64,000 nucleotides of DNA from Tragulus kanchil. Lineage: Eukaryota > Chordata > Mammalia > Artiodactyla > Tragulidae. The stretch spans positions 39,404,324 through 39,468,323 of the forward strand of contig JAIOJX010000001.1 of the NCBI GenBank assembly GCA_022376925.1. The letters are read 5' to 3'. Under the pieces are notes generated by a model. It saw nothing but the letters and a program-made list of their open reading frames with translations, made no database searches and was not told where the DNA came from. A program made the position numbers and the translations under genes. Of this stretch, positions 101 to 62,697 are shown piece after piece (position 1 is the first letter of the stretch; every line of letters begins with the position of its first letter).

Positions 101-361
101 AATCCATTCAGCTACTCTCTTTGGAGCATTTAGTGCATTTAGATTTAAAGTAATCATTGATAAGTGCATACTTTTATTGCCATTTTCTGATTTCTTTTCT
201 GGTTTTTTTTTTTTTTGGTAGTTTCCTTTTGTTCTCTTCCTTTGTGGTTTGATGGTTATCTTTAGTGTTATTTTAAAATTTTTTTCTCTTTTAGATGAGT
301 GCGTCTCTTACACATGGTTTTTTAAAAAATATTCACTCAGACTTTCTGTTCTTTTTGAGTT

Positions 362-602
362 TTTTGGCCTCTTTTATTTGTTTTTTATTTATTTATTTTC
401 ATCCATCTTTGTTCTTTGGCCTGTGTGGGCCTCCTATTGCAGTGACCTCTCTCATTGCAAAGCACTGGCTGTGGGTGCATGTGCTCCTAGAGTGCTGGCT
501 CATAATTGGGCACACTGGTCCAGCTGCTCTGTGGCACGTGGGATCTTCCTGGGCCAGGGATTGAACTGGACTCTGTACCCACTGGACCTCGAGGGAAGCC
601 CT
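362..602 (-). mobile_element. CHR-type tRNA-derived SINE (copy 1)
   Basis: In reverse orientation it shows the family tail (GGCCTCTTTTATT, CATCCATCTTTGTTCTTTGG), the central GGGATCTTCC block and the closing GGGAAGCCC head. It sits inside the antisense L1. Confidence 0.75.
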
Positions 603-1399
603 CTTACAGATTTTTGATTTGTGTTTTTTGGTTATAGATTTTTCATGTGGTTTATAAATAAAGCTATGTATAAAATATTTTATGTAAATATGTGATTTGT
701 TGATCTCTTCAGTTGAACACATTTTGACAGTCTTGTATTTTTATTCCCCTCACCACACACTTAATGTGTGTAACATCATATTACATTTTTCTGTGTATCC
801 CTTAACTACTTTTTATGGATATAAATGATCTTACTACTTATGTCTTTTAGCCTTACTACTAGTTTTATTATTTGATTTATTACTTTACTGTGTATTTGTT
901 TCTACCAGTGAGATTTTTTCCATTATAATTTTTCTGTTTCTAATTGTGGCCTTTTATGCTCAGGGAAGTCTCTTTACTGTTTCTTGTAGAACTGGTTTTA
1001 TGATGCTAAACATTTGGCTTTTGCTTGTCTGTAAAGCTTTTGATCTCTTTCAACTCTGAGTGATAACCTTATATCACTTTAACTATATTGTGCCTCTTTC
1101 TTCTGTCCTGCAGAATTTCTGCTAGAAAGTCAGAGGAGAGTCCTATGACCATTTCCTTGTATGTGAATAGTTGCTCTTCTCTCACCGCTGTTAAGATTTT
1201 CTCTTTTCCTTCTTTTTTTTAATTTTGGTTATTTTAATTATAATGAGGGGATCTCTTTGGGTTCATCTTGTTTGGGACTTTGTGGTTTGATGGTTATCTT
1301 TAGTGTTATTTTAAAATTTTTTTCTCTTTTAGATGAGTGCGTCTCTTACACATGGTTTTTTAAAAAATATTCACTCAGACTTTCTGTTCTTTTTGAGTT

Positions 1400-1640
1400 T
1401 TTTGGCCTCTTTTATTTGTTTTTTATTTATTTATTTTCATCCATCTTTGTTCTTTGGCCTGTGTGGGCCTCCTATTGCAGTGACCTCTCTCATTGCAAAG
1501 CACTGGCTGTGGGTGCATGTGCTCCTAGAGTGCTGGCTCATAATTGGGCACACTGGTCCAGCTGCTCTGTGGCACGTGGGATCTTCCTGGGCCAGGGATT
1601 GAACTGGACTCTGTACCCACTGGACCTCGAGGGAAGCCCT
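1400..1640 (-). mobile_element. CHR-type SINE (copy 2, by tandem duplication)
   Basis: This is the same SINE as at 362-602, displaced by exactly 1,038 bases and carrying identical sequence. It is not an independent insertion. Confidence 0.75.
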
Positions 1641-3180
1641 CTTACAGATTTTTGATTTGTGTTTTTTGGTTATAGATTTTTCATGTGGTTTATAAATAAA
1701 GCTATGTATAAAATATTTTATGTAAATATGTGATTTGTTGATCTCTTCAGTTGAACACATTTTGACAGTCTTGTATTTTTATTCCCCTCACCACACACTT
1801 AATGTGTGTAACATCATATTACATTTTTCTGTGTATCCCTTAACTACTTTTTATGGATATAAATGATCTTACTACTTATGTCTTTTAGCCTTACTACTAG
1901 TTTTATTATTTGATTTATTACTTTACTGTGTATTTGTTTCTACCAGTGAGATTTTTTCCATTATAATTTTTCTGTTTCTAATTGTGGCCTTTTATGCTCA
2001 GGGAAGTCTCTTTACTGTTTCTTGTAGAACTGGTTTTATGATGCTAAACATTTGGCTTTTGCTTGTCTGTAAAGCTTTTGATCTCTTTCAACTCTGAGTG
2101 ATAACCTTATATCACTTTAACTATATTGTGCCTCTTTCTTCTGTCCTGCAGAATTTCTGCTAGAAAGTCAGAGGAGAGTCCTATGACCATTTCCTTGTAT
2201 GTGAATAGTTGCTCTTCTCTCACCGCTGTTAAGATTTTCTCTTTTCCTTCTTTTTTTTAATTTTGGTTATTTTAATTATAATGAGGGGATCTCTTTGGGT
2301 TCATCTTGTTTGGGACTTTGTGGTTCCTGTATGTGGATATCTGTTTTCCTTCCCAGTTGAGGGCAGTTTTCAGCTATTATTTCTTTAATTAAAGAATCTT
2401 CCCCCTTTTACCTCTTTTTTTCTAAGATGCCTGTATTGTAGTGTTAGTATGCTTGATGTTGTTGCTGAACTTTCCTACATTATCTTCAATTTTTAAAATT
2501 CTTTTTATTTTTTTCTGTTCAGCTTGGGTGAACAGAACTCTGTCTTCTAGTTTGCTGAGCTGTTCCTCTATACAATCTACTTTTGCTTTCATCTAGTGTA
2601 TTTTTTATTTCATTATTCTTCATACTGCATGGTTCTTCCTTATATTTTCTTTGTCTTAAACTTCTTAGTGTGGTAATATGTCTCCTGAGTTCACAGAGCA
2701 TCTTTATTATCATTACCTTGAACTCTTATATTGGGTATATTGTTTATCTTCCATTTACTTAGTTCTTCTGGGTTTTTCTTAAATCTTTTTCCTTCATTTG
2801 GAGCATATTCCTCTGTTGCCTAATTTTGTCTAATTCTCTATGTGAGAATATGTTCTTACATATTAGATTATGTTTCATGATTTTGAAGAAGTGGCCTTCT
2901 ATAGGAGACCTTCTTATGGGGTGCAACTTCTGGTCACCAGAGCTATATGCTCTAGGGGGTGTAGCCTATATTGGCTTCATGGACCCCTCTGTTGTGAATG
3001 GGCTGACTACAGTGGGTGCACTGGTAGGTGGGGCTAGATTCTGGCCCAGTTGCTTCTGGTCCCTTCCTCATGTGCAGGATGCTGGCCCGCTGGTGGATGG
3101 AGATGGGTCTGGGAATGCTGGCTACTCTGCCTGGGCTGTCCCTGAACTGGTGCCACCTGGCTGCTGCTGCTGCTTTGTCA

Positions 3181-3332
3181 CTTCAGGCGTGTCCAAGTCT
3201 TTGTGACCCCATGGATTGCAGCCTGCCAGGCTCCTCTATCCATGGAATTCTCCAGACAAGAATACTGTTGTGGGATGCCATGCCCTCCTCAGGGTGATCT
3301 TCCCAACCCAGGGATGGAACCCAGGTCTCTTG

Positions 3333-3368
<36 letters not shown>

Positions 3369-3472
3369 TTGAGGCTTCATGGACTATAGCCTGCCAGGCT
3401 CCTCTGTCCATGGAATTTTCCAGGCAGGAATACTGGAGTGGGTTGCCATTTCCTTTTCCAGACACCTGGCTG
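3181..3472 (-). mobile_element. Bov-tA SINE pieces with internal CA repeat
   Basis: Two Bov-A-like segments in reverse orientation (about 3184-3335 and 3369-3460) flank a CA microsatellite at about 3334-3367. Both contain the GCCTGCCAGGCTCCTCT block and a CCATGGAATT block. A second copy lies at 4259-4550 through duplication 2. Confidence 0.8.
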
Positions 3473-3483
3473 GTGGGTGGGTA

Positions 3484-4160
3484 ATCTTCCAGTGCTAATA
3501 TGTTAGAGAGAAGATTCTAAATTGGTGCTTATCAGGGTCAGTATCTTCGTGTAGAGTAGCTCCCTAGAATGGCTGCTACCAGCATCTATATCCCCAGGGT
3601 CAGCAGGTAGGTCTCCTTTTGAATTTTTGTCTCTGTCTTGGGTCTCAGAGATTGTGAGATTTAGTATATGACATTCTAGAGCAAAATCTATGTTTCATAA
3701 AGCCTTCTGACTCTCCCATCCACAGTCATCACTGGTCTTCAAAGCCAGCTGTTTTGGGGCTTGTGTTCTCAGTGCTGGACCTCCTTGGGTTGGAGAGCTT
3801 GAAGTGGGACTCAGATCCCATACTCTTCACTCCTTGGGGAGAACCTCTGTAAAGTACGATTATCCTCCCATTTGTGGGTTACCTCCCTGGTGGTTGGGTC
3901 TTGAATATACCATGTCTCTACCCCTCCTACCTGTTGTGTTCGGGTTTCTTTATATCTTCAGTTGTGTACAGTCTTCTGTTAGTCTTCAGAGCATTCTCAT
4001 TGATAGTTGCTCTGTACATAGTTGTGATCTGGGTGTGCTTGTGGGAGGTGATAAGTTCCAGGTCTTCCTACTCTACTGTCTTGGTCCTGGAATGTATTTT
4101 AAAAACAGATCTGCTGAAATGTAATTTGACATACACAATATCACTGCACATTTAAGTATA
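3484..4160 (-). mobile_element. L1 LINE 5' end, antisense (duplicated at 4562-5238)
   Basis: The stretch ends near 4080 with CTACTCTACTGTCTTGG, the complement of the usual L1 start in which an AAGATGG-like motif precedes a GAGTAGAAGGA-like motif. It is the far end of the antisense L1 that begins near 104. No coding capacity remains. Confidence 0.55.
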
Positions 4161-4410
4161 CTGTTTCGGTTTTGAAATATGCATATGCCTATGAAACGTC
4201 GCCACAGTCAAGCTGATGGGTATATCTGATTAATCTTTACAAAGATTTCCTCTTGTCACTTCAGGCGTGTCCAAGTCTTTGTGACCCCATGGATTGCAGC
4301 CTGCCAGGCTCCTCTATCCATGGAATTCTCCAGACAAGAATACTGTTGTGGGATGCCATGCCCTCCTCAGGGTGATCTTCCCAACCCAGGGATGGAACCC
4401 AGGTCTCTTG

Positions 4411-4446
<36 letters not shown>

Positions 4447-5367
4447 TTGAGGCTTCATGGACTATAGCCTGCCAGGCTCCTCTGTCCATGGAATTTTCCA
4501 GGCAGGAATACTGGAGTGGGTTGCCATTTCCTTTTCCAGACACCTGGCTGGTGGGTGGGTAATCTTCCAGTGCTAATATGTTAGAGAGAAGATTCTAAAT
4601 TGGTGCTTATCAGGGTCAGTATCTTCGTGTAGAGTAGCTCCCTAGAATGGCTGCTACCAGCATCTATATCCCCAGGGTCAGCAGGTAGGTCTCCTTTTGA
4701 ATTTTTGTCTCTGTCTTGGGTCTCAGAGATTGTGAGATTTAGTATATGACATTCTAGAGCAAAATCTATGTTTCATAAAGCCTTCTGACTCTCCCATCCA
4801 CAGTCATCACTGGTCTTCAAAGCCAGCTGTTTTGGGGCTTGTGTTCTCAGTGCTGGACCTCCTTGGGTTGGAGAGCTTGAAGTGGGACTCAGATCCCATA
4901 CTCTTCACTCCTTGGGGAGAACCTCTGTAAAGTACGATTATCCTCCCATTTGTGGGTTACCTCCCTGGTGGTTGGGTCTTGAATATACCATGTCTCTACC
5001 CCTCCTACCTGTTGTGTTCGGGTTTCTTTATATCTTCAGTTGTGTACAGTCTTCTGTTAGTCTTCAGAGCATTCTCATTGATAGTTGCTCTGTACATAGT
5101 TGTGATCTGGGTGTGCTTGTGGGAGGTGATAAGTTCCAGGTCTTCCTACTCTACTGTCTTGGTCCTGGAATGTATTTTAAAAACAGATCTGCTGAAATGT
5201 AATTTGACATACACAATATCACTGCACATTTAAGTATACTGTTTCGGTTTTGAAATATGCATATGCCTATGAAACGGTCGCCACAGTCAAGCTGATGGGT
5301 ATATCTGATTAATCTTTACAAAGATTTCCTCTTGTCCCCTTGTAATCAATCCCTACTTTTCTTCCCT

Positions 5368-5494
5368 TGAATTTTTTTTTCTTTTTGGCCATACCACATG
5401 TATTTCATTACCTTAGTCTCCAAATCAGTGATTGCACAATGGCCCCAGCAGTGAAACAACCAAGTCCTAACCACAGGACCACCAGGGAATTCCC
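5368..5494 (-). mobile_element. CHR-type SINE fragment
   Basis: A T-rich run followed by TTTTTGGCCATACCACATG and closing with CCACCAGGGAATTCCCTA is the reverse of the short CHR-type SINE found across cetartiodactyls. Confidence 0.65.
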
Positions 5495-5559
5495 TAGTCT
5501 TTTTAAGGTAGCAACTGAGGCTATTGATTTGAGAACTTTCTTTTCTAACTTAGCACTTT

Positions 5560-6090
5560 AATGTTATAAATTCCTCTCTGAGTACTGCTTTGTTTGTAAC
5601 CCCAAACTTGGATAGGTTGTATTTTCATTTGGTTAAGGAAAAAAATCCCTTTGGAATTCTTCGACCCATGGATGATAGAGAATTTCCAGGAATTTTTCTG
5701 TTACTTATTTATAACTATTCCACTGTGGACAGGAATATAATCTTTATGACATTGCAGTCTTTCAAATTTATTAAGACTTGTTTTATGGCCCATAATATGA
5801 TCTGTCTTGGTAAATGTTCTACATGCATATGAAAAGAATTTGTATTTGCTGTTGAGTGGAGTGCTCTATAAATAGCAACTTGGTGAAATTGGTTGGCAGT
5901 GGTAAAATATTTTATGTCTTGATTTTCTGCCTACTTGTTCTATCAGTTGTTGAGAAAGAGGTGTTGGAATCTTCAGCTGCAATTGTGGATTTGTCTATGT
6001 CTGTGCATTTCTTTCAGTCTGTTTCACATATAGACCTTCCTCAACTTATGATGGAGTTATATCCTAATAAACACACTCTAAGTTGAACAT
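5560..6090 (-). mobile_element. L1 LINE internal part, antisense (also at 6639-7169)
   Basis: Text such as AATTCCTCTCTGAGTACTGC, TTTTATGGCCCATAATATG and AATTGTGGATTTGTCTATG matches, in complement, the internal region of older mammalian L1 elements as I remember it. The duplicate arises from duplication 3. Frames are broken. Confidence 0.6.
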
Positions 6091-6142
6091 ATTAAGTCAA
6101 ATGCACTGAATACACCTAACCTACTGAACATCACAGCTTAGT

Positions 6143-6352
6143 TTGCATGCATGTGTGCTCAGTCGTGTCCTGACTCTTTGTGACTCCATTGGCTGTAGCC
6201 TTCCAGGCTCCTATGTCCATGGGATTTTCCACGTGAGAATACTGGAGTGGGTTGCTATTTTGTACTTCAGGGAATCTTCAGATTCAAGGATTGAGCCTGT
6301 GTCTCCTGTATTGGCGGGTGGATTCTTTACCTTTGAGCCACTGGTAGGCCTA
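6143..6352 (-). mobile_element. Bov-tA SINE (copy at 7222-7431)
   Basis: A full-length-looking reverse Bov-tA: the TGTCCTGACTCTTTGTGACTCC end, GCCTTCCAGGCTCC, GAATACTGGAGTGGG and the tRNA-like head ending TTTGAGCCACTGG. The second copy comes from duplication 3. Confidence 0.85.
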
Positions 6353-7549
6353 TAGCTAAGTCTAGCCTACCTTAAAAATGCTTAAGACACTGATATTAGC
6401 CTATATTTAGCAAAACCATCTAACACAAAGCCTATTTTATAATAAAATGTTGAGTATCTCATGCAATTTATCGGTTGTGTGTGTTTTAGTCACACAGTTG
6501 TGTCCAACTCTTTGCAACCCTGTGGACTGTAGCACTCCAGGCTCTTCTGTCTATGGAATTCTCCAGGGAAGCGTTAGTCTTTTTAAGGTAGCAACTGAGG
6601 CTATTGATTTGAGAACTTTCTTTTCTAACTTAGCACTTTAATGTTATAAATTCCTCTCTGAGTACTGCTTTGTTTGTAACCCCAAACTTGGATAGGTTGT
6701 ATTTTCATTTGGTTAAGGAAAAAAATCCCTTTGGAATTCTTGACCCATGGATGATAGAGAATTTCCAGGAATTTTTCTGTTACTTATTTATAACTATTCC
6801 ACTGTGGACAGGAATATAATCTTTATGACATTGCAGTCTTTCAAATTTATTAAGACTTGTTTTATGGCCCATAATATGATCTGTCTTGGTAAATGTTCTA
6901 CATGCATATGAAAAGAATTTGTATTTGCTGTTGAGTGGAGTGCTCTATAAATAGCAACTTGGTGAAATTGGTTGGCAGTGGTAAAATATTTTATGTCTTG
7001 ATTTTCTGCCTACTTGTTCTATCAGTTGTTGAGAAAGAGGTGTTGGAATCTTCAGCTGCAATTGTGGATTTGTCTATGTCTGTGCATTTCTTTCAGTCTG
7101 TTTCACATATAGACCTTCCTCAACTTATGATGGAGTTATATCCTAATAAACACACTCTAAGTTGAACATATTAAGTCAAATGCACTGAATACACCTAACC
7201 TACTGAACATCACAGCTTAGTTTGCATGCATGTGTGCTCAGTCGTGTCCTGACTCTTTGTGACTCCATTGGCTGTAGCCTTCCAGGCTCCTATGTCCATG
7301 GGATTTTCCACGTGAGAATACTGGAGTGGGTTGCTATTTTGTACTTCAGGGAATCTTCAGATTCAAGGATTGAGCCTGTGTCTCCTGTATTGGCGGGTGG
7401 ATTCTTTACCTTTGAGCCACTGGTAGGCCTATAGCTAAGTCTAGCCTACCTTAAAAATGCTTAAGACACTGATATTAGCCTATATTTAGCAAAACCATCT
7501 AACACAAAGCCTATTTTATAATAAAATGTTGAGTATCTCATGCAATTTA

Positions 7550-7765
7550 TCGGTTGTGTGTGTTTTAGTCACACAGTTGTGTCCAACTCTTTGCAACCCT
7601 GTGGACTGTAGCACTCCAGGCTCTTCTGTCTATGGAATTCTCCAGGGAAGAATACTGGAGTGGGTAGCCATTCCCTTCTCCAGGGGATCTTCCCAACCCA
7701 GGGATCAAACCTGGATCTCCTTCATTGCAGGCAGATTCGTTACCATCTGAACCACCAGGGAAGCC
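7550..7765 (-). mobile_element. Bov-tA SINE (truncated copy at 6471-6571)
   Basis: A complete reverse Bov-tA ending ACCACCAGGGAAGCC. Copy 1 of duplication 3 holds only its first 100 bases before the join, showing that copy 2 has the natural continuation. Confidence 0.85.
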
Positions 7766-9990: not shown

Positions 9991-12124
9991 AGGATATTTA
10001 TTGAACATTCAAGATGCATATGTGTATGCTCTAATTTCAAGGATCTCATTTCAATTTAAGTCTTTTATAACAGTAATGGTCTTCACAAAGCCACCAGCTT
10101 CCAGTGTTGTTACTTGCAGTCATCAGGTTGAAATTGTATCTTGGCTTTTCCATAGAGGCAGAGTTATCTCCAATTTTCATTCTATACAGTACTAGGATCA
10201 TTAGCTTCTTGTTGGACTTATGACTGTTCACAAAAAGAACTACTTTATTGTTGAACTGGTTATATGAGGCTAATGGGATGACAGTAGAACTCTGTGGCAG
10301 TTTGAGGGAACCTTTCTTAAAAGAAAATTGGCATGTCCTCTTTACCGCCTTTTCTCTTCCTCCCATGCTTGTTCAATTCCTGGATGAATGTCAGATCCCT
10401 GAGGACTTAATGAACCACAGGCACAATGAGTTTTAGATTACCCATATCCAGATTTTCATGTGACAGAGATATAAACTATCTGGCTTGAACCACATGTATT
10501 TGGGGGTCTGAATTACAGCTAAACATAATTTTTAGTTGATGCATGTAGGTATTAAGAACAGTCAGCATACCTTTCTATCTTGTCTAAATAAAAAAAAAAT
10601 GGCTTATGAAAATAAAGAAGCTTTCTCAGTTCTGCTTCCATGTAAGTACTATCTCCACCTCATGAAAACTGGGAAAAGAGAGTTTTAGACTTTTCCCATA
10701 GTATGTGCTTTTAATCTACTGATGACCCATCAGAATGAACTCAGAGAAAGTATTAAATGACTTGTTGAATTAATATATGAACTTACAGAATAGGAGCCAG
10801 AGGGGAGGACTTGGTGCCACAATGGGATGAACATTATTGGAGAAAACTGATTCCCCTACTTACTGTATTAGCTTTCTATTACCACAAATGGTGGGTAGAA
10901 TAAGGGACCCCAAAGATGTCAATGTCCTGACACCAAGAAACTATAAACACATTACCTTTTACAGTGAAAGAGACTTTGAAGATATGATTCAGAATTTTGA
11001 GGAGGTAGTTCCAGTTTATCTTGGTAGGCTCCGGTGAGTCACAAGGATCTGGATAAGAGGATATTTATTGAACATTCAAGATGCATATGTGTATGCTCTA
11101 ATTTCAAGGATCTCATTTCAATTTAAGTCTTTTATAACAGTAATGGTCTTCACAAAGCCACCAGCTTCCAGTGTTGTTACTTGCAGTCATCAGGTTGAAA
11201 TTGTATCTTGGCTTTTCCATAGAGGCAGAGTTATCTCCAATTTTCATTCTATACAGTACTAGGATCATTAGCTTCTTGTTGGACTTATGACTGTTCACAA
11301 AAAGAACTACTTTATTGTTGAACTGGTTATATGAGGCTAATGGGATGACAGTAGAACTCTGTGGCAGTTTGAGGGAACCTTTCTTAAAAGAAAATTGGCA
11401 TGTCCTCTTTACCGCCTTTTCTCTTCCTCCCATGCTTGTTCAATTCCTGGATGAATGTCAGATCCCTGAGGACTTAATGAACCACAGGCACAATGAGTTT
11501 TAGATTACCCATATCCAGATTTTCATGTGACAGAGATATAAACTATCTGGCTTGAACCACATGTATTTGGGGGTCTGAATTACAGCTAAACATAATTTTT
11601 AGTTGATGCATGTAGGTATTAAGAACAGTCAGCATACCTTTCTATCTTGTCTAAATAAAAAAAAAATGGCTTATGAAAATAAAGAAGCTTTCTCAGTTCT
11701 GCTTCCATGTAAGTACTATCTCCACCTCATGAAAACTGGGAAAAGAGAGTTTTAGACTTTTCCCATAGTATGTGCTTTTAATCTACTGATGACCCATCAG
11801 AATGAACTCAGAGAAAGTATTAAATGACTTGTTGAATTAATATATGAACTTACAGAATAGGAGCCAGAGGGGAGGACTTGGTGCCACAATGGGATGAACA
11901 TTATTGGAGAAAACTGATTCCCCTACTTACTGTATTAGCTTTCTATTACCACAAATGGTGGGTAGAATAAGGGACCCCAAAGATGTCAATGTCCTGACAC
12001 CAAGAAACTATAAACACATTACCTTTTACAGTGAAAGAGACTTTGAAGATATGATTCAGAATTTTGAGGAGGTAGTTCCAGTTTATCTTGGTAGGCTCCG
12101 GTGAGTCACAAGGATCTGGATAAG
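9991..12124. repeat. Direct tandem duplication 4 (unit 1,067 bp)
   Basis: Bases 9991-11057 recur at 11058-12124 without a visible difference. AGGA marks each boundary. The last 129 bases of copy 2 (11996-12124) also start duplication 5, so that piece occurs three times. Confidence 0.95.
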
Positions 12125-12508
12125 AGGAAGGTGGGAAGGTCAGAGTCAAGAGTAGGAGGTAAAAGAAGCTAAGGTCAAAGAGATAGAGACTTGAAGGTGG
12201 AGAAAAGGGCCACGAGCCCAGGAATGCACGTGGCTGCTGAAAGCTGGCAAAAATGACTAGTCTGGGAACATGCATATCTGTAAACAACAAAACTCTGTAA
12301 AAGTTAAAAGTAAAATAAAGGTTTTTTTTTTTTTTTTTAAAAAAAAAAAAACCAAGGGCACTGCTTCTTCCTTAGAGCTTCCATAAGGAATGCAGTCCTG
12401 CCAGCACCTTGATCTAGGATTTCTACCTTCTGACTTGTCAGGAGAATGTGTGTTTTAAATCACCATGGTGATGCGTTACAGCAGTGATAGGAAACCGCTG
12501 TACGATGT
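11955..12508 (+). mobile_element. MLT1-like LTR (MaLR), with partial and full duplicates
   Basis: The segment has the layout of a mammalian MaLR LTR: GGGACCCCAAAGATGTCAAT near the start, GAGACTTTGAAGATATGATT, CCTTGATCTAGGATTTC and a final TACAGCAGTGATAGGAAAC. It appears to interrupt an older repeat whose halves are at about 11928-11954 and 12509 onward. A truncated copy is at 10888-11053 and another at 13108-13622. Subfamily not assigned. Confidence 0.55.
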
Positions 12509-13433
12509 AACGAATTACACAGAGCTCATGACTTAAAACAGCTCCCATTTGTTATGTCACAGTTTCTGCAGGTCAGAAGTTTGGGCATGGCTTCAGTCGG
12601 TCTTCTGCCCAGTGTCCCGCGAGGCTGTACTAAAGGCCAGCTGCTTTCTCATCTGAAATCCTGACTGGGACATGCACCATTTCTAAGATAATCAGTTTGT
12701 TGGTAGATGTCAGCTTGCAGCTATGAAATTTGAGTTTCCATTTTCTTGCTGACTGTGGGACCAGAGGCTGCTTTGAGCAGTTGGAGCCCATCGGTAGTTG
12801 TTCATCATGTAGCCCTCTCTGTCGACCTGGGTACATGTGCGTGTGTATGTGGGGTTGCAGGAGTGACATCCAATCCCCATTGCTGTGTAACTATAGTCTA
12901 GCCTAATCCCAAGCATGACAGCTTTTGCTGTTTTCTGTTACTTAGAAACAAATCACAATTCTCACCCATACTCAGTGGGAGGGGATTGTACAGGGTATAA
13001 ACATGGGGTCCATTCTAAGACCTGTGCCATATCTCATGTTAAAAAAAAAAATTACAAGAATTCATCAGACCTATCACCTGCTGTTTAGTGAAATTTAGAA
13101 TCTGCCAGACACCAAGAAACTATAAACACATTACCTTTTACAGTGAAAGAGACTTTGAAGATATGATTCAGAATTTTGAGGAGGTAGTTCCAGTTTATCT
13201 TGGTAGGCTCCGGTGAGTCACAAGGATCTGGATAAGAGGAAGGTGGGAAGGTCAGAGTCAAGAGTAGGAGGTAAAAGAAGCTAAGGTCAAAGAGATAGAG
13301 ACTTGAAGGTGGAGAAAAGGGCCACGAGCCCAGGAATGCACGTGGCTGCTGAAAGCTGGCAAAAATGACTAGTCTGGGAACATGCATATCTGTAAACAAC
13401 AAAACTCTGTAAAAGTTAAAAGTAAAATAAAGG

Positions 13434-13464
<31 letters not shown>

Positions 13465-14220
13465 CCAAGGGCACTGCTTCTTCCTTAGAGCTTCCATAAG
13501 GAATGCAGTCCTGCCAGCACCTTGATCTAGGATTTCTACCTTCTGACTTGTCAGGAGAATGTGTGTTTTAAATCACCATGGTGATGCGTTACAGCAGTGA
13601 TAGGAAACCGCTGTACGATGTAACGAATTACACAGAGCTCATGACTTAAAACAGCTCCCATTTGTTATGTCACAGTTTCTGCAGGTCAGAAGTTTGGGCA
13701 TGGCTTCAGTCGGTCTTCTGCCCAGTGTCCCGCGAGGCTGTACTAAAGGCCAGCTGCTTTCTCATCTGAAATCCTGACTGGGACATGCACCATTTCTAAG
13801 ATAATCAGTTTGTTGGTAGATGTCAGCTTGCAGCTATGAAATTTGAGTTTCCATTTTCTTGCTGACTGTGGGACCAGAGGCTGCTTTGAGCAGTTGGAGC
13901 CCATCGGTAGTTGTTCATCATGTAGCCCTCTCTGTCGACCTGGGTACATGTGCGTGTGTATGTGGGGTTGCAGGAGTGACATCCAATCCCCATTGCTGTG
14001 TAACTATAGTCTAGCCTAATCCCAAGCATGACAGCTTTTGCTGTTTTCTGTTACTTAGAAACAAATCACAATTCTCACCCATACTCAGTGGGAGGGGATT
14101 GTACAGGGTATAAACATGGGGTCCATTCTAAGACCTGTGCCATATCTCATGTTAAAAAAAAAAATTACAAGAATTCATCAGACCTATCACCTGCTGTTTA
14201 GTGAAATTTAGAATCTGCCA
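11996..14220. repeat. Direct tandem duplication 5 (unit 1,112 bp)
   Basis: Bases 11996-13107 recur at 13108-14220, differing by one T in a homopolymer run. GAC is the only shared boundary motif. It overlaps duplication 4. Confidence 0.95.
12322..12351. repeat. T17-A13 homopolymer palindrome
   Basis: Seventeen T are followed directly by thirteen A, an inverted repeat able to fold on itself. The duplicate at 13434-13464 has eighteen T. It lies inside the LTR just after AAATAAAGG. Similar T/A junctions occur at 34141-34172 and near 35227-35252. Confidence 0.9.
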
Positions 14221-14765
14221 GACCTTCAAGCTTGACAGAAGTGGGAAAGTGAAAGTCCATGAGCACCTACATATGTTCCCCAACATATGGGGGGCTAGAA
14301 TGTTCACAGCAGCTTTCCCTGACAGCTGAAAATTGGGAAACTACCCAAAGTCCTCTCAGTAGTGGAATGGATCAATAAATTATTAGTACTTGGGATGAAT
14401 AGACAGTTAACAGAAATGGGAAGGAAGATTCTAAAACTCTATTGAGTCATTTGAATTAACAGTTTTGATGTAATAGTGAGCAAAAGAAACTAGACTCAAG
14501 AGGGCATACAATAGAGTTCAATTTCTATCAAATACCAAACCATGAACTTAATCTGTGCGGGTAGAAGTCTGCAGAGTCATGACCTTGGGTGATAGCTGAG
14601 TAGAGGGGAACTGGGGAGTTTGTGAGTCGCCAGCAGTGTTTTCGTTTTTGATCTGTGTGTTGGTTATGTGCATGTGTTTAGTTTGTGAAAATTCACCCTG
14701 ATGGACACCTATGACTTGTGCGTATCCTCTCTGTATAATTATGCCTCAATTTAAAGCTTCTCTTG
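14221..14765. other. Unassigned sequence, no gene seen
   Basis: Short open frames only. No repeat family recognised. Confidence 0.5.
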
Positions 14766-23368: not shown

Positions 23369-24009
23369 AGTGTTCATCTCTTTGCCTCCACTTTTGTCTG
23401 CAGAAATCCTTGATCTGCTTACCCCAACTGATGCGACCCAGTCTGTTGCTATGGAGATGAGGAATGTGCGCAGACACTAAGTCAGGGTGCAGGGGAGAAT
23501 TAGGGAGCACTGCCATGTAGCAGCTTGACTGAAGATGGGGGAGGGACCCAGGGTTTGTACATAAAATTTGTGCACTAGAGTTAAAGGCGCGAAAAGGTTA
23601 GAAGTCCAGGGCAGACGAACCCCCAAATTGTCCAGGCCAGATATCTACACTCAGGCATGAATTCAAGCCACACGGCAATTGGGTTTGGGGATGGGGATTG
23701 GGGGTCAGTCACAGCAGGCAGGGCTCTGGAGGGGAAAGTGAGACCAAATGTAGGCTCAACTGGCAAGTGCAGGAAGGAGGAGGGGAGCGAGTGGCCTGGC
23801 TTCCTGTTCCCTGCTGTCCTTGTCTTGGGAACCCAGGCTGCCTGAACTGCCCCACCCTGGCTTCTTGATGCTCTCTCACTCCTTTCTTTGAGCATTCCAG
23901 CTGTGCACTTTCCTAGGATCTTTTGCTGAAATCCTCAGTGGCCCCAGGGGAGAAAATCCCGAGAATCCATTTCCATTCCCTGTGAGACTCGGGCTATAAG
24001 AAGACCTGT
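23369..24009. other. Unassigned sequence, no gene seen
   Basis: A 104-codon minus-strand frame at 23581-23895 resembles nothing known. No repeat recognised. Confidence 0.5.
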
Positions 24010-24035
24010 CCAGGGCAAAGTGAGATCTGAGTAGC

Positions 24036-24370
24036 AGCTGTAACAAAACTCCATAGACTGGGTGACTCCAACGTGTCTTTTCTCACAGTTTTGGAGACTG
24101 GAAGTATGAGCTCAGGGTGTTAGCATGGACGGGCTCTGGCAAGGATTCTTCAGTACACATCCACTGTATCCTCACATGGCCTTTTCTCTGAGCACTCTAG
24201 AGGGAGAGTTCTTCCTCTTTTCATAAGGCCATTAATCCTCTTGGATTAGGGCTCCACATTTTCTCCTGTTCAACTGTAATTAGCTCCTAAAGGCCCTATG
24301 TCTAAGTAGAGTCACACTGGGGGATAGGGCTTCAGCATATGAATTTGGCAGAGACACACTTCCATCGATA
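24036..24370. mobile_element. MaLR-like LTR remnant (copy at 25115-25445)
   Basis: The pattern GTAACAAAACTCCATAGACTGG, TTCTCACAGTTTTGGAGACTGG, CTTTTCATAAGGCCATTAATC, GGGCTTCAGCATATGAATTTG is a familiar old mammalian LTR-type repeat. The same family is seen at 28503-29712 and 53284-53930. Confidence 0.5.
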
Positions 24371-24649
24371 CCACTCAGCATCCCTTGTGTATGTTTGTTT
24401 GAAAGGCTCCACCCTACATATCCTCAATCAAAATCTCCACCAGGGCAGAGCCTGGGAATCTGTAAGCACTTCAGGAGTTTCTGATGAACACTGATGTTTA
24501 AGAATCACTTCCATGGTGTGTTACGTGTAGCTCATATGATCGCAACGTTTTTGAAGCCGGCCTTATTTCTACCCTGTATTATCACTGTGGTAGGTAGCAC
24601 AGTCTCCATTTATGATTCTTCTTGGCTGAGATAGGTCTTCTAGGTATCC

Positions 24650-24775
24650 TAAACCAGTAGTTCTCAAGCTACTGGGTCTGGGTCTTGTGAAAATGCAGAT
24701 TCTGATTCAGCAGGCCTGGGGTGGCACATGTGGTTCTGCCTTTCTAACAGGCTCCCAGGATCCTAGACCATCATG
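24650..24775 (+). mobile_element. MER5-like remnant (copy at 25725-25850)
   Basis: CCAGTAGTTCTCAAGCTACTGG, AAATGCAGATTCTGATTCAG and CAGGCCTGGGGTGG agree with hAT-Charlie MER5-type elements. Confidence 0.5.
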
Positions 24776-25946
24776 CCAGGTTTAGAGGTGTGCCTGTAAT
24801 TCAGGGCTAGCAAATTCGTGTGTCTTCAATGGCTAGGCTAATAAAGGATTGTAAATGTGTGGAACTACCAGAGGTAACATGAATAGGGTGTGATAGAGCC
24901 TGTAGGCATTCGATTACACATTTCAGAACACCCTGGGCTCACCAGATCAGCTACAAACTGCTTCCATTGGGGGCAACTGATTTGTTCCCCCTTTGCTAGT
25001 ACAACCATTTTAAGATTTGTCAAGAAGTATGTTGCCATCTAGTCACTTCACAGATGTTCAGATTTCAGCCACAATCCCTTTCATTTTCCTCTGCCAGGGC
25101 AAAGTGAGATCTGAGTAGCCTAAAAACTATGACTGGGTGACTCCAACGTGTCTTTTCTCACAGTTTTGGAGACTGGAAGTATGAGCTCAGGGTGTTAGCA
25201 TGGACGGGCTCTGGCAAGGATTCTTCAGTACACATCCACTGTATCCTCACATGGCCTTTTCTCTGAGCACTCTAGAGGGAGAGTTCTTCCTCTTTTCATA
25301 AGGCCATTAATCCTCTTGGATTAGGGCTCCACATTTTCTCCTGTTCAACTGTAATTAGCTCCTAAAGGCCCTATGTCTAAGTAGAGTCACACTGGGGGAT
25401 AGGGCTTCAGCATATGAATTTGGCAGAGACACACTTCCATCGATACCACTCAGCATCCCTTGTGTATGTTTGTTTGAAAGGCTCCACCCTACATATCCTC
25501 AATCAAAATCTCCACCAGGGCAGAGCCTGGGAATCTGTAAGCACTTCAGGAGTTTCTGATGAACACTGATGTTTAAGAATCACTTCCATGGTGTGTTACG
25601 TGTAGCTCATATGATCGCAACGTTTTTGAAGCCGGCCTTATTTCTACCCTGTATTATCACTGTGGTAGGTAGCACAGTCTCCATTTATGATTCTTCTTGG
25701 CTGAGATAGGTCTTCTAGGTATCCTAAACCAGTAGTTCTCAAGCTACTGGGTCTGGGTCTTGTGAAAATGCAGATTCTGATTCAGCAGGCCTGGGGTGGC
25801 ACATGTGGTTCTGCCTTTCTAACAGGCTCCCAGGATCCTAGACCATCATGCCAGGTTTAGAGGTGTGCCTGTAATTCAGGGCTAGCAAATTCGTGTGTCT
25901 TCAATGGCTAGGCTAATAAAGGATTGTAAATGTGTGGAACTACCAG

Positions 25947-34140: not shown

Positions 34141-34172
<32 letters not shown>

Positions 34173-34318
34173 TTTATTTATTTATTTGTGCTGTGTCTTT
34201 TTGGGAGGGCATAGTTTGGGGAGGGAGGGGCGGGCGGGCCACTTCTATTGGTCTTTCATTTATTTATTTTCATCCATCTTTGTTCTTTGGCCCATGTGTG
34301 CCTCCTATCACAGTGGAC
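34141..34318 (-). mobile_element. Long-tailed CHR-type SINE, broken copy
   Basis: Only the tail part of the SINE at 35229-35582 is present, ending abruptly at CACAGTGGAC where duplication 9 joins. It starts with a T17-A17 homopolymer junction. Not an independent insertion. Confidence 0.85.
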
Positions 34319-35228: not shown

Positions 35229-35582
35229 TTTTTTTTTTTAAAAAAAAAAAAACATTTATTTATTTATTTGTGCTGTGTCTTTTTTGGGAGGGGGGCATAG
35301 TTTGGGGAGGGAGGGGGGCGGGCGGGCCACTTCTATTGGTCTTTCATTTATTTATTTTCATCCATCTTTGTTCTTTGGCCCATGTGTGCCTCCTATCACA
35401 GTGGACTCTGTTGTCCCAAAGCACCGGGTCTGGGCACATGCACTCCAGAGCTCCGGCTTGGTGATTGGACACATGGGTCCAGCCGCTCCACAGCACGTGG
35501 GATCTTCCCAGGCCAGGGATCGAACCAGCGCCCCTTGCACTGCAAGGTGGTGTCCATAGCCACTGGACCACCAGGGAAGCCC
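35229..35582 (-). mobile_element. Long-tailed CHR-type SINE, complete
   Basis: Reverse orientation with the GGGGAGGGAGGGG / GGGCGGGCCACTTCTATT tail block and head ending ACCACCAGGGAAGCCC. CTTCCACTCTT (35218-35228) and CTTCCAGTCTT (35584-35594) flank it as target-site duplication with one mismatch. Confidence 0.85.
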
Positions 35583-46195: not shown

Positions 46196-46539
46196 GATTG
46201 CCCTGTTGTAAGCATTTGAGAAATGCTAGCTGTTGCTGCTGTTGTTTATATTATCATTCTACTCCCAGGTTTGCCATAGATCCCATGGGTGCAGCTGGGC
46301 AGAAGAATGTCATTGGCTGTGGGAAAATCCACTGATCACTGTTGGAGAAAAATATGCACGCCCGGGTCATATATCCTCTCTGTTCTTCTAGGCTGTTGGA
46401 TGGTTTTCTCATATCAAACTGCTGTTGTCATTCTAATGTTTTTGTCTCTGTCTCTTTCCTTCCCTTCTGCCTCTTGTGTTCTGGGAAAACTTTTCTGAGG
46501 TCTGAGGCAGTGTCTGCTTTATAGCCCCACATTCTATTA

Positions 46540-47010
46540 TTAAAGGATTTGCATTATATTACTAAGCCCTGTTGGCACAAACTTCATTACCTACCATTTC
46601 AAGCCAAACTTCATTTCACACAAAGAAAGAATAATTTAACGACACACACATGCACAAACAATAATAAGGGTCCCGGTTGACTCCCCTTCTTCCAAAAGAT
46701 TTAGAAAATCATTTAATACAATTATTCCTAATATGCTGCCCATCAGCTCTGAGGTAGTTCTGTGAGGGAAAAAAAAAAAAAGAAACAGCTGCAATTACTT
46801 CACTTAAAGGATTAAGATGATAAATTTGAGGAGACCTGCCTTGCAAAGTTAGCGTTGAACTAACTCATTCCCTTTCCATTGTTGGGAATTGCCACTTTTT
46901 TGACGGGAGATCAAGACTGCACGTATCTTGTGAACTTTGTTGCTGAAGGAGCCTGGTAAGTATGGCTGGCTGATTTTTCTGCTCAGTGCCTCAGTGTTCT
47001 CTGTGGTGGA
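46540..47010. other. Repeat-poor AT-rich stretch, possible conserved noncoding element
   Basis: No transposon landmarks or frames. Contains AATCATTTAATACAATTATT and similar homeobox-type words. The copy lies at 47624-48094. Confidence 0.25.
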
Positions 47011-47129
47011 GGGGCAGCAAGCTCACTGTCAGTTAAAAAGCCTCAGATAAGAACAAATCATCCTTAGGTTTCTATGTGTGAATCAAGGTTTCCATGACTA
47101 GGAGGCTTCCAAATACCCCTGACGAGTAT

Positions 47130-47285
47130 GATTGTGTGTTCATCCATTCATTACCCTGGTGCTTACCTATAGCATCCACCCTGTTCTAGGCGAGGAAACT
47201 ACAGAAAGGAGTAAACCATGTTCTGTGCCTTCAGGGAGCTTACAGTAGTCATGGAGACAGGCACATGTGATGAGTCCAAAGGTAA
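47130..47285 (+). mobile_element. L2-like LINE remnant (copy at 48215-48365)
   Basis: TCATCCATTCATTACCCTGG, TGTGCCTTCAGGGAGCTTAC and ATGGAGACAGGCACATG resemble the L2 3' region. Confidence 0.45.
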
Positions 47286-48469
47286 GAGGTTGTAAGCATT
47301 TGAGAAATGCTAGCTGTTGCTGCTGTTGTTTATATTATCATTCTACTCCCAGGTTTGCCATAGATCCCATGGGTGCAGCTGGGCAGAAGAATGTCATTGG
47401 CTGTGGGAAAATCCACTGATCACTGTTGGAGAAAAATATGCACGCCCGGGTCATATATCCTCTCTGTTCTTCTAGGCTGTTGGATGGTTTTCTCATATCA
47501 AACTGCTGTTGTCATTCTAATGTTTTTGTCTCTGTCTCTTTCCTTCCCTTCTGCCTCTTGTGTTCTGGGAAAACTTTTCTGAGGTCTGAGGCAGTGTCTG
47601 CTTTATAGCCCCACATTCTATTATTAAAGGATTTGCATTATATTACTAAGCCCTGTTGGCACAAACTTCATTACCTACCATTTCAAGCCAAACTTCATTT
47701 CACACAAAGAAAGAATAATTTAACGACACACACATGCACAAACAATAATAAGGGTCCCGGTTGACTCCCCTTCTTCCAAAAGATTTAGAAAATCATTTAA
47801 TACAATTATTCCTAATATGCTGCCCATCAGCTCTGAGGTAGTTCTGTGAGGGAAAAAAAAAAAAAGAAACAGCTGCAATTACTTCACTTAAAGGATTAAG
47901 ATGATAAATTTGAGGAGACCTGCCTTGCAAAGTTAGCGTTGAACTAACTCATTCCCTTTCCATTGTTGGGAATTGCCACTTTTTTGACGGGAGATCAAGA
48001 CTGCACGTATCTTGTGAACTTTGTTGCTGAAGGAGCCTGGTAAGTATGGCTGGCTGATTTTTCTGCTCAGTGCCTCAGTGTTCTCTGTGGTGGAGGGGCA
48101 GCAAGCTCACTGTCAGTTAAAAAGCCTCAGATAAGAACAAATCATCCTTAGGTTTCTATGTGTGAATCAAGGTTTCCATGACTAGGAGGCTTCCAAATAC
48201 CCCCTGACGAGTATGATTGTGTGTTCATCCATTCATTACCCTGGTGCTTACCTATAGCATCCACCCTGTTCTAGGCGAGGAAACTACAGAAAGGAGTAAA
48301 CCATGTTCTGTGCCTTCAGGGAGCTTACAGTAGTCATGGAGACAGGCACATGTGATGAGTCCAAAGTAAGAGGCAAGTACTGACTGTGTCTGGCACACTG
48401 CTGTGGTGGGTCCTCCATGCCGTCTGCCTTTAATTATCTGGCCAGGGTAGAACTAAGAACTGAAAAATG

Positions 48470-55628: not shown

Positions 55629-56518
55629 TACCTAGTTCAGTGCCTATCACTTAAGGACACTGCATAATGGAAGATCTTATTAGTAGTGGTAGTACTAGCA
55701 TTGTTATTGTTATTATTACTACTCCTAAATTATATTGTTTTAAGTTGCAAAGAATATGAATCTAAAGACAGTTTGAATCCTGTTTTGTCAGTACCAAGTT
55801 TAGGAACATAATACATATGATCTTATTGAATATGCTCTGGATGATGTTTCTGTCTTACTAGCTGGATAGGGAGTTCCTGAGAGCAATAATTTCTTTCCAC
55901 CAGATTTGAAACTGGTTATCAAAGAGAATGTCTTCCTAACTCTACAGGATAGTCTATCGTCAGATATGGGGCTACCTGAAAGGTGGCTACAAGTCTCCAC
56001 CACTGGGCTTTAGGTCTCTCCAAGGACACAGACAGCATCAGCATCCTCCTTTTTCTTACAGGTGAGTGACTTGGTATTACTGCTGAGCTGCACTGAAGTG
56101 AGAAAGTAGCAAAGGGATGGGAACAGATAGGAATCCTCATCATAGTTGAGATTCTGTGGACTGTCAAGACCCACTTGACCCTCTGATATTTTGCAGTCGC
56201 AAATGTCCCCAGATGCTGCACTAAGATGTTTGCCTTGGTTTTTAAGCCCAGGCACATTTTAGGACCTATTGAATCTGTGTGCCTCCAATTGATTTACATT
56301 TAACATATCAAAATGTTGTTTTGTAAGAGATTTGATATCTGAAAAGCCTGCTGAGCTGCTTTTTATGAACATTTCAAAGCCTTTTGCTTTGAAGAGATCG
56401 AAACCTGGATGGTGTTCCCTGTTGTTACTGGCCTCAGAATTCCAGAGGGTTCTGAGAGAGTAAAGTGTTCGAGGATGGCCTGTCCTATACAGAGTGACAG
56501 ACTGGTGGTCTAGAGGAG
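55629..56518. other. Unassigned sequence, no gene seen
   Basis: A 112-codon minus frame at 55919-56257 resembles no known protein. No repeat recognised. Confidence 0.5.
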
Positions 56519-58672
56519 GCAGGAGAGAAAGTAGTATTGCGGGTCAGTATGGATGGGGTAGTTTCTTTATGTATGATGGCCAGGCAGACATCTGAAGTCC
56601 CAATTATCCTCTGTTAAAACCTAATTCAGGTCCTTGGTTGCTGTGGAGTAGGAGGTGCCTGTTGGAAGAGTACAGGAATGATATGGCATGTGGAGCCATC
56701 AGAGTGTAAAGAACATTAGGTACAAAGCATTCCTGAATGCAAATACCCACTGGTGAAGCCCATGAGTGGGAGGCTTTAAAGAGTGATGGATGATTTGGGA
56801 AAGTAGAGCATATGTTATCCATCTACAATCATTGGGAAAAAAAAATTAAACACTGCACAGTTCACCACCTATGTATCCAGCTTATGGACTCTTGGTCTAG
56901 TTCACCCTTCATATTTATCAGCAAGGAGACTAAGGCACGACAACTGTGAAGTAACTGGTCAAAAGATTCCCAGCTAGCCAATGGTGGAAAAAGACTGGAA
57001 CTTGAAACTTTCTGCATGTAAGCACTTCAAGTCTGGTGCTTTTTTTCATTATACTATGCTGCCTGTTTAGGTTGACCCTTATCAATCAGAAAAAATAAGA
57101 GGCAGATATCAGAAAGTCATAGTGGAAATATTGTGAATCATCCCAGTGCTGGTTGTTTTGTGGCGAGAAGACTGACAGATGGTCAGAAGAGGAATGTGTG
57201 GAAAAGTGGCCTGGAGGTCAGAATTGAGGACATGAAAAATAGGGCAGACTCATTAGAATTTGGGGGTGGTCTGCCTTGAGTCACTTTAGGACCGAAGATG
57301 ACAAAACTCAAGAGAATTTAGAGGTAGCACATGAAGAGGGAGAGTGACAGATTGATAGCAGCAGGCAACCCCTCAAAAGCGTTCCAGGTGGAGTTCTGAG
57401 ATGAACATTGAATGGACAGTCACCTATGATTGCTGTTGGAGTTAGGACTTTAAAAGCATACCTGGGAACCAAGATGGTGGAGTAGAAGGATGTGTACTCA
57501 TCTGCAAAAACACCAAAATTGCAACTAGCTGCTGAAAAACCATCGACAGGAGGGTGTTGGGTCTCACCAAGAAAAGATACAGAGTGTCAGATGGTGTCAA
57601 AGAGGGAGGGCAGGAGAGAAAGTAGTATTGTGGGTCAGTATGGATGGGGTAGTTTCTTTATGTATGATGGCCAGGCAGACATCTGAAGTCCCAATTATCC
57701 TCTGTTAAAACCTAATTCAGGTCCTTGGTTGCTGTGGAGTAGGAGGTGCCTGTTGGAAGAGTACAGGAATGACATGGCATGTGGAGCCATCAGAGTGTAA
57801 AGAACATTAGGTACAAAGCATTCCTGAATGCAAATACCCACTGGTGAAGCCCATGAGTGGGAGGCTTTAAAGAGTGATGGATGATTTGGGAAAGTAGAGC
57901 ATATGTTATCCATCTACAATCATTGGGAAAAAAAAATTAAACACTGCACAGTTCACCACCTATGTATCCAGCTTATGGACTCTTGGTCTAGTTCACCCTT
58001 CATATTTATCAGCAAGGAGACTAAGGCACGACAACTGTGAAGTAACTGGTCAAAAGATTCCCAGCTAGCCAATGGTGGAAAAAGACTGGAACTTGAAACT
58101 TTCTGCATGTAAGCACTTCAAGTCTGGTGCTTTTTGTCATTATACTATGCTGCCTGTTTAGGTTGACCCTTATCAATCAGAAAAAATAAGAGGCAGATAT
58201 CAGAAAGTCATAGTGGAAATATTGTGAATCATCCCAGTGCTGGTTGTTTTGTGGCGAGAAGACTGACAGATGGTCAGAAGAGGAATGTGTGGAAAAGTGG
58301 CCTGGAGGTCAGAATTGAGGACATGAAAAATAGGGCAGACTCATTAGAATTTGGGGGTGGTCTGCCTTGAGTCACTTTAGGACCGAAGATGACAAAACTC
58401 AAGAGAATTTAGAGGTAGCACATGAAGAGGGAGAGTGACAGATTGATAGCAGCAGGCAACCCCTCAAAAGCGTTCCAGGTGGAGTTCTGAGATGAACATT
58501 GAATGGACAGTCACCTATGATTGCTGTTGGAGTTAGGACTTTAAAAGCATACCTGGGAACCAAGATGGTGGAGTAGAAGGATGTGTACTCATCTGCAAAA
58601 ACACCAAAATTGCAACTAGCTGCTGAAAAACCATCGACAGGAGGGTGTTGGGTCTCACCAAGAAAAAGATAC
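56519..58672. repeat. Direct tandem duplication 11 (unit 1,091 bp)
   Basis: Bases 56519-57609 recur at 57610-58672 with a few substitutions (ATTGCGGG/ATTGTGGG near 56539; AATGATATGG/AATGACATGG; TTTTTTCATT/TTTTTGTCATT). The last 27-30 bases of copy 1 before the join (about 57582-57609) have no counterpart in copy 2. Confidence 0.94.
56880..57062 (-). mobile_element. MIR SINE remnant (copy at 57970-58152)
   Basis: GGAGACTAAGGCACGACAAC, TAACTGGTCAAAAGATTCCC and TTATACTATGCTGCC resemble a diverged MIR in complement. Confidence 0.55.
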
Positions 58673-60097: not shown

Positions 60098-60500
60098 TCT
60101 CTCGTTGTTTGGTTGCTAAACTGTGTCTGACCCTTTGTGACCCCATGACTGCAGCACCCCAGGCTTCCCTGTCCTTCACTATGTCCATTGAGTCATGTCA
60201 TTGAGTCAGTGATGCCATCCAACCATCTCATCCTCTATCACCCCCTTCTTTTCCTGCCTTCAGTCTTTCCCAGCATCAGAGTCTTTTCCAGTGAGTCAGA
60301 CCTTCACACCAGGCGGCCAAAGTACTAGAGCTTCAGCTTCAGCATCAGTCCTTCCAGTGAATAGTCAGGGCTGATTTCCTTTAGGATTGACTAGTTTGGT
60401 CTCCTTGCAGCCCAAGGGACTCTCAAGAGTTTTCTCCAACACCATAGTTTGAAAGCATCAATTCTTCAGCAATCAGCCTTCTTTATGGTCCAACTCTAGG
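60098..60500 (-). mobile_element. BovB 3'-end fragment (Bov2/ART2A type)
   Basis: GTGACCCCATGACTGCAGC, GATGCCATCCAACCATCTCA, CAGCATCAGTCCTTCCAGTG, GGTCTCCTTGCAGCCCAAGG and CAATTCTTCAGCAATCAGCC follow the complement of BovB. The last 126 bases also occur at 61513-61638. Confidence 0.92.
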
Positions 60501-60508
60501 TTTCTGTG

Positions 60509-60690
60509 AAAGTGAAATTGTTAGTCACTCAGTCATGTCCAACTGTTGGCAACTCCATGGCTGTACCCTGCCACATTCCTCTGTCCATGGGATTATTCAG
60601 GCAAGAATACTGGAGTGGGTTGCCATTCCCTTCTCTAAGGGATCTTCCTGACCCAGGGATCAAACCTGGTGGATTCTTTGTCATCTGAGA
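60509..60690 (-). mobile_element. Bov-tA SINE (copy at 61647-61828)
   Basis: Reverse orientation: CAGTCATGTCCAACTGTTGG, GAATACTGGAGTGGGTTGCC, GGATCTTCCTGACCCAGGG. The head is partly deleted. It abuts the BovB fragment. Confidence 0.85.
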
Positions 60691-61364
60691 GCTTCTTAAT
60701 TTTTTTAAAAATTTTGACTCTTTCTGCCCCTCAGCTGCCCAAACCCAGTATTGTTTTATTCAAAGATACTTACCTCTTATCCCAGGGTCGTGAATACTGG
60801 GAAACCCTCTGGTCTACTATGTCATCTACCAGACAGGCTGCAATTTGACATCGTCCACCTGTCCCTTCATCTCTAATGACTTTCTCTGATACTTTCATGC
60901 TTCACTGATGACTTGGAAATCACTCTGCTCCTTCTAGGCCATGATCAGGGTCAGAAATTTCTTTTTCTCTCCATTCACCAAACTTCTGGTCAATAAACAG
61001 ATCACAGAGACCCTGTCATGGGGTTCCAGGGACACCTATAGTCTCTATGTTTCCCTGTCTCTTCTGTTATCACAGTAAAGGGTCTTTTCTAGTCTGAGGA
61101 AATTTGAAATACTTCTCTCTTTAGTCAGCATATTTCTCTACCCTCTGTCCTCTCTAGTGCCCTCAGAACCTAAACTTTTGGACACTAAACCTGAAAGATT
61201 GTTTTCCCTGCTTTTGTTTGTTGTTACCCCTCCCTGAAGAAATGAACATAGAACTGCTAAAGTGGTGGAGCTGGGGAACGACTGGTGGTCCTTGGGGTAC
61301 AGACTTCACTACCAAGAGAAAACTGATTTCTAGTCATATTATCCTGATCTAAAATCTAAATGAT
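60691..61364. other. Unassigned sequence, no gene seen
   Basis: No repeat or long frame. Copy at about 61829-62502. Confidence 0.5.
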
Positions 61365-62502
61365 CAGGACTTCCCTGGTGATCCAGTGGTTAAGACTTCT
61401 CCTTGCAATGCAGGGAACACTGGTTCAATCCCTGATCAGGGAACTAAGATCCCACATGCCGTGAAACAACTAAGCCCACACCCAGAGAGTCCTTGCACCA
61501 CAGCGTCCTTTTTTTCCTTTAGGATTGACTAGTTTGGTCTCCTTGCAGCCCAAGGGACTCTCAAGAGTTTTCTCCAACACCATAGTTTGAAAGCATCAAT
61601 TCTTCAGCAATCAGCCTTCTTTATGGTCCAACTCTAGGTTTCTGTGAAAGTGAAATTGTTAGTCACTCAGTCATGTCCAACTGTTGGCAACTCCATGGCT
61701 GTACCCTGCCACATTCCTCTGTCCATGGGATTATTCAGGCAAGAATACTGGAGTGGGTTGCCATTCCCTTCTCTAAGGGATCTTCCTGACCCAGGGATCA
61801 AACCTGGTGGATTCTTTGTCATCTGAGAGCTTCTTAATTTTTTTAAAAATTTTGACTCTTTCTGCCCCTCAGCTGCCCAAACCCAGTATTGTTTTATTCA
61901 AAGATACTTACCTCTTATCCCAGGGTCGTGAATACTGGGAAACCCTCTGGTCTACTATGTCATCTACCAGACAGGCTGCAATTTGACATCGTCCACCTGT
62001 CCCTTCATCTCTAATGACTTTCTCTGATACTTTCATGCTTCACTGATGACTTGGAAATCACTCTGCTCCTTCTAGGCCATGATCAGGGTCAGAAATTTCT
62101 TTTTCTCCATTCACCAAACTTCTGGTCAATAAACAGATCACAGAGACCCTGTCATGGGGTTCCAGGGACACCTATAGTCTCTATGTTTCCCTGTCTCTTC
62201 TGTTATCACAGTAAAGGGTCTTTTCTAGTCTGAGGAAATTTGAAATACTTCTCTCTTTAGTCAGCATATTTCTCTACCCTCTGTCCTCTCTAGTGCCCTC
62301 AGAACCTAAACTTTTGGACACTAAACCTGAAAGATTGTTTTCCCTGCTTTTGTTTGTTGTTACCCCTCCCTGAAGAAATGAACATAGAACTGCTAAAGTG
62401 GTGGAGCTGGGGAACGACTGGTGGTCCTTGGGGTACAGACTTCACTACCAAGAGAAAACTGATTTCTAGTCATATTATCCTGATCTAAAATCTAAATGAT
62501 CA

Positions 62503-62697
62503 GGACTTCCCTGGTGATCCAGTGGTTAAGACTTCTCCTTGCAATGCAGGGAACACTGGTTCAATCCCTGATCAGGGAACTAAGATCCCACATGCCGTGA
62601 AACAACTAAGCCCACACCCAGAGAGTCCTTGCACCACAGCGAAAATTCTAACATGACTCAAGATACCACAACTAAGACAAATAAATATTAAAAAAAA
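62503..62697 (+). mobile_element. CHR-type SINE (truncated copy at 61365-61502)
   Basis: GGACTTCCCTGGTGATCCAG, TTCAATCCCTGATCAGGG and an A-rich AAATAAATATTAAAAA tail. The earlier copy lacks the tail because duplication 12 joins there. Confidence 0.85.

Follow-up and report, generated by a model that had tools for sequence, protein, structure and literature searches.

The 64,000-nucleotide stretch analyzed here (the window; Tragulus kanchil assembly GCA_022376925.1, first contig, positions 39404324–39468323) contains twelve tandemly doubled units, each just over 1 kb long. These duplications are almost certainly an artefact of assembly processing that occurs throughout the sampled assembly and corresponds to no biological feature. 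We infer that no cell carries the duplicated copies. The initial annotation of the window had proposed that overlapping ends were left unmerged, an explanation that fits nearly all of our tests, including genome sampling, junction anatomy, and conserved exons.

All twelve annotated pairs were recovered in place as direct, adjacent, and near-identical copies, listed here by window position:

Pair 1, 240..2325: copies 240–1277 and 1278–2315, with 10 bp matching beyond; offset 1038, identical core.
Pair 2, 3175..5336: copies from 3175 and 4253; offset 1078–1079, one 1-bp insertion or deletion (indel).
Pair 3, 5482..7650: copies from 5482/5495 and 6563/6575; offset 1080.
Pair 4, 9991..12128: copies from 9991 and 11058; offset 1067, identical.
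Pair 5, 11996..14223: copies from 11996 and 13108; offset 1112–1113, one homopolymer indel.
Pair 6, 24006..26170: copies from 24006 and 25091; offset 1085/1075; head-type junction, first ~45 bp of copy 2 degraded.
Pair 7, 25947..28219: copies from 25947 and 27070; offset 1123; tail-type junction, last ~55 bp of copy 1 degraded.
Pair 8, 31191..33482: copies from 31191 and 32313; offset 1122; tail-type junction, last ~59 bp of copy 1 degraded.
Pair 9, 33227..35407: copies from 33227 and 34319; offset 1092 to 1088, six indels and one substitution.
Pair 10, 46205..48373: copies from 46205 and 47289; offset 1084, two 1-bp indels.
Pair 11, 56487..58672: copies from 56487/56541 and 57577; offset 1090–1091; head-type junction, first ~56 bp of copy 2 degraded.
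Pair 12, 60375..62641: copies 60375–61505 and 61513–62641, with 7 bp between; offset 1138–1136, one 2-bp indel.

Measured at the copy starts, the offsets were 1038, 1078, 1080/1081, 1067, 1112, 1085 (1075 for the exact core), 1123, 1122, 1092, 1084, 1090/1091, and 1138, in close agreement with the values read earlier and confirming the narrow size range (1038–1138 bp) drawn from them. The matched stretch was about as long as the offset, at most 59 bases lay between the matched parts of the window copies, and no N separated them. The units had also been described as sharing no sequence with one another. This does not hold for all of them; three neighboring pairs of units overlap, with 133 (units 4 and 5), 214 (6 and 7), and at least 93 (8 and 9) exact bases in common, the 133 bases shared by units 4 and 5 being present in three copies. 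Tandem Repeats Finder detected nothing in the window with its longest period of 500, which is below the unit size.

The source assembly comprises 3,167,203,957 bases in 32 contigs. At least 16 contigs exceed 70 Mb, the largest reaching 297 Mb, and these large contigs probably reflect a species with few, large chromosomes. Among the 47 matches from an initial search of the assembly, at least 8 short interspersed nuclear element (SINE) matches outside the window, counted by eye, had a second match 1.02–1.19 kb away. Seventeen further stretches, each 10 kb long and placed at round coordinates, were taken from 14 contigs, one of which is the window's own. A finder using 32-base seeds and matches of at least 150 bp was run on the window plus these stretches (234 kb). 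Every one of the 17 stretches contained 2–4 duplications. They totaled 48, of which 38 were complete; the size statistics omit the 10 truncated at the end of a stretch and retain 2 of the 50 complete cases that adjoin masked bases. For these 50 (the 38 together with the window's 12), the offset ranged from 1038 to 1209 bp, with a mean of 1117, a median of 1110.5, and a standard deviation of 43.

Across the 234 kb, 60 pairs had offsets of 700–1700 bp and seven had offsets of 1701–2700 bp. None fell at 100–699 or 2701–5000 bp, which excludes chance as the source of the pairs. Each of the seven longer offsets is about the sum of two consecutive units, and these pairs represent triple copies because successive units overlap there. 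Joins occurred once per ~3.5 kb in the sampled stretches and once per 5.3 kb in the window, and block length from join to join was irregular: the longest of 42 intervals measured 12,953 bp and the shortest, from a stretch containing masked bases, 1466 bp. Neighboring units overlapped in 10 of 42 cases, six by 71–259 bp and four by 387–813 bp; the largest overlap (813 bp) lies in a stretch with masked bases.

Copies that are all direct and adjacent are also what real germline tandem duplication would give, through a replication-based process with microhomology. Such a process would need, by extrapolation, 0.8–0.9 million events, all of a single size and without measurable age, and would have to be present in 17 of 17 stretches. 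Instead of the spread of sizes and divergence expected of germline duplication, we found one size class and near-identical copies.

The fraction of sequence contributed by second copies was 30.2% in the unmasked stretches (26.7–34.0% when stretches were bootstrapped), 20.5% in the window, and 27.5% in the window and stretches combined. The surplus of ~13.1 kb proposed earlier is right for the window (13,098 of 64,000 bases) but too low in scale, as the fault extends beyond it. Given the recurrence of joins in the sample, the extrapolated surplus is some 0.65–1.1 Gb, compared with 13 kb in the window. Extrapolating from the 17 stretches and the window, we estimate the joins in the whole assembly to be of the order of 0.8–0.9 million, and the genome size after removal of the surplus would be ~2.2 Gb (2.1–2.3) if judged from the stretches and 2.5 Gb if judged from the window. 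We consider it rather probable that this chromosome-scale 3.167-Gb assembly contains butt-joined overlaps of 1.04–1.21 kb in that number and is roughly 30% false.

Conserved exons gave a separate view of the same fault. A search of the assembly for the BEACH domain (PF02138) returned 53 hits at nine loci. Eighteen pairs of hits within 20 kb correspond to the same portion of the domain, and 16 of these are spaced 1072–1155 bp apart; the remaining two pairs, at distances of 2.3 and 3.4 kb, involve one hit whose range overlaps only partly. Doubling thus affects 16 of the 37 distinct exon hits (43%), in seven of the nine loci, with 3 of the 16 falling in one doubled stretch on a single contig (C27). 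The figure of 43% equals 0.302/0.698, the proportion predicted from a surplus of 30.2%, an agreement that is loose with 37 exons. Germline doubling of 16 of 37 conserved exon hits should break proteins, and we do not find it credible that one domain's exons were really doubled in place at seven loci with a single offset. The genome sample and the exon result together led us to reject mutational mechanisms. The 14 control genomes, with no mammal among them, gave no BEACH hit, which has no bearing on the assembly.

We then counted the differences between copies in 49 of the 50 complete pairs (53,017 bp of core; one pair omitted for N). There were 70 indel events, 36 of them in homopolymer runs of at least 3, compared with 40 substitutions. 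Fifteen pairs were identical, 34 were free of substitutions, and 44 had at most two. Old duplicates differ mostly by substitutions and in varying amounts, so that the predominance of indels argues against a germline origin. The differences resemble consensus noise with no spread of age, and they fit two separate consensus calls of one locus.

A haplotypic (heterotype) false duplication, in which two alleles are assembled in succession, would have the same tandem look, and the 3–10 substitutions in 5 of the 49 pairs are in its favor. However, with 34 of 49 pairs substitution-free and 15 identical, the differences expected between alleles were not seen, and allelic duplication has no reason to keep to 1.04–1.21 kb. 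We regard this explanation as highly improbable for the set as a whole. The pair at L010:83–2334 carries 10 substitutions and one indel, the most of the 49, and its copies may come from different haplotypes.

The anatomy of the joins was analyzed at 48 of the 50 (two were skipped for masked bases). Unmatched DNA was absent in 13, amounted to 1–8 bases in 7, and reached at least 12 bases in 28. When the 28 longer pieces were compared with shuffled controls, 11 resembled the start of copy 2 and 9 the end of copy 1. Most of these 20 block-end-like pieces are degraded copies; the one at window position 33246 is an exact piece split off by an indel. Poor consensus would be expected at the extreme ends of blocks, where alignment depth thins. 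The presence of block-end-like DNA at 20 of the 28 joins with unmatched pieces speaks further against germline duplication, which we consider vanishingly improbable.

Old repeats provided another test of the boundaries. Probes 200 bp long were matched against sites at a distance of more than 4.5 kb or in other records within the 234 kb. Of the 50 units, 47 yielded a left, 49 a right, and all 50 a junction probe. Among the outer probes, repeat matches crossed 6 of the 47 on the left and 8 of the 49 on the right (14/96), versus 1 of the 50 at junctions (Fisher P = 0.02), a comparison weakened somewhat by the use of matched-core ends as boundaries, since the true block end can lie up to ~85 bp away where it is degraded. 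At the sole crossed junction, a degraded head of 85 bp precedes the cut, and the match therefore need not span the join. Pair 3 ends inside a repeat, and 42 repeat matches elsewhere in the sampled data span its right boundary.

Because the overlap is fixed (1038–1209 bp) while block spacing varies, a software unit is indicated. A near-constant overlap between irregular blocks points to consensus blocks with a common layout unit rather than to sliding windows or natural contig ends. The earlier proposal of contig ends thus holds insofar as overlaps were set side by side, but the pieces were probably consecutive consensus blocks of a layout and not separate contigs. We propose that consecutive blocks overlapping by one near-fixed layout unit were given separate consensus calls, in which the shared unit would come to 1.04–1.21 kb in consensus bases. 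Where the overlap was missed, as it would have been at many joins, the blocks would be placed end to end without trimming, and each such join would present the overlap twice, with the look of a perfect tandem duplication.

Given an artefact, we are fairly confident that the fault lay in the block joining of a long-read assembler and not in subsequent processing. A flank of ~1 kb could also have been re-inserted at each chunk edge during chunked polishing, scaffolding, or gap filling, and degraded chunk ends combined with a fixed overlap would look identical at the join. This variant is unlikely: polishing chunks of fixed size would not give such irregular blocks (~1.5–13 kb), and for scaffold gaps a join every few kilobases seems too frequent.

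For block joining in a long-read assembler, our leading candidate is wtdbg2 with wtpoa-cns, a guess that we offer tentatively; the general reading as an artefact is independent of the identity of the program. In wtpoa-cns, consensus is made edge by edge, and neighbors are then joined over their shared vertex. Failure of that join could yield the observed picture. The assembler wtdbg2 is described as using a fuzzy Bruijn graph in which reads are cut into 1024-bp segments that serve as graph vertices (PMC10989838), with consensus made by the separate program wtpoa-cns (PMC9915519). Shared vertices left unmerged might produce units slightly longer than 1024 at irregular intervals. The consensus overlaps of 1038–1209 bp (mean 1117), set against 1024 read bases, mean that wtdbg2 would need a net deletion bias in the reads. 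The default node overlap of wtdbg2 is 256 bases.

Several points weigh against this account. For wtdbg2 in particular, the overlaps of 387–813 bp between 4 of 42 successive units exceed that default, a 256-bp ladder sought by eye in the list of steps was not seen, and a limited search of open papers gave no clear match for a described join artefact of this program. More generally, 8 of the 28 junction pieces match neither block end above shuffled controls, and the five pairs with 3–10 substitutions may be haplotype differences. Microhomology of 3–10 bp was present at 8 of 48 joins, compared with 6.1% by chance (P = 0.008); template switching can leave such matches in germline duplication, and plain side-by-side placement does not predict them at clean joins. 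They may mark a joiner settling on a short spurious match, a possible trace of how the cut point was chosen. The account does not explain why the join failed despite a near-identical 1.1-kb overlap, and that real DNA lacks the copies is itself inferred.

Some further features of the window were recorded. A Pfam search of 8 of the 38 open frames of at least 120 amino acids gave no family, and no window gene was used in the analysis. An open frame at 51041–51736 on the minus strand (231 amino acids) looks like a possible exon and has no Pfam match. A 19-base motif occurs at 12 window sites with at most three mismatches (0.03 expected by chance), for example at 33493–33511 and 38925–38943, and 6 of the 12 sites form three pairs of doubled copies. 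The motif is known from ruminant SINEs, which agrees with a ruminant source.

Should the sampled stretches be typical of the whole, ~30% of the assembly would be false and ~40% of conserved exons would be doubled. The consequences would be spurious exon gains, disrupted gene models, and overcounted tandem duplications. Gene, repeat, and duplication counts taken from this assembly would be affected, possibly along with other assemblies from the same pipeline. Other assemblies can easily be screened for the same signature, in which adjacent direct repeats spike at a single offset. Our results bear on this assembly record and add nothing new on ruminant biology.

Within a limited search of open papers, we did not meet a fixed-length, join-wise error inside contigs that affects ~30% of the sequence. 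The nearest relatives are found among known false duplications, which are divided into heterotype and homotype kinds, total 0.3–15.9% across six assemblies, and most often have copies separated by gaps (PMC9516828). The duplications described here resemble the homotype kind, a term of the Vertebrate Genomes Project, in that they appear to be under-collapsed copies of one locus with no clear haplotype difference in a haploid assembly, and homotype duplications can likewise inflate genes and exons. They are unlike it in that ~30% of the sample is surplus and in their near-fixed length, their adjacency, and the lack of N between the window copies. A second relative is the retained overlap between contigs that purge_dups is described as removing (PMC7203741). 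In both cases overlapping sequence is kept twice; purge_dups deals with separate contigs, mostly from homologous chromosomes, after cutting at blocks of N, whereas the doubled units of this assembly lie inside continuous sequence.

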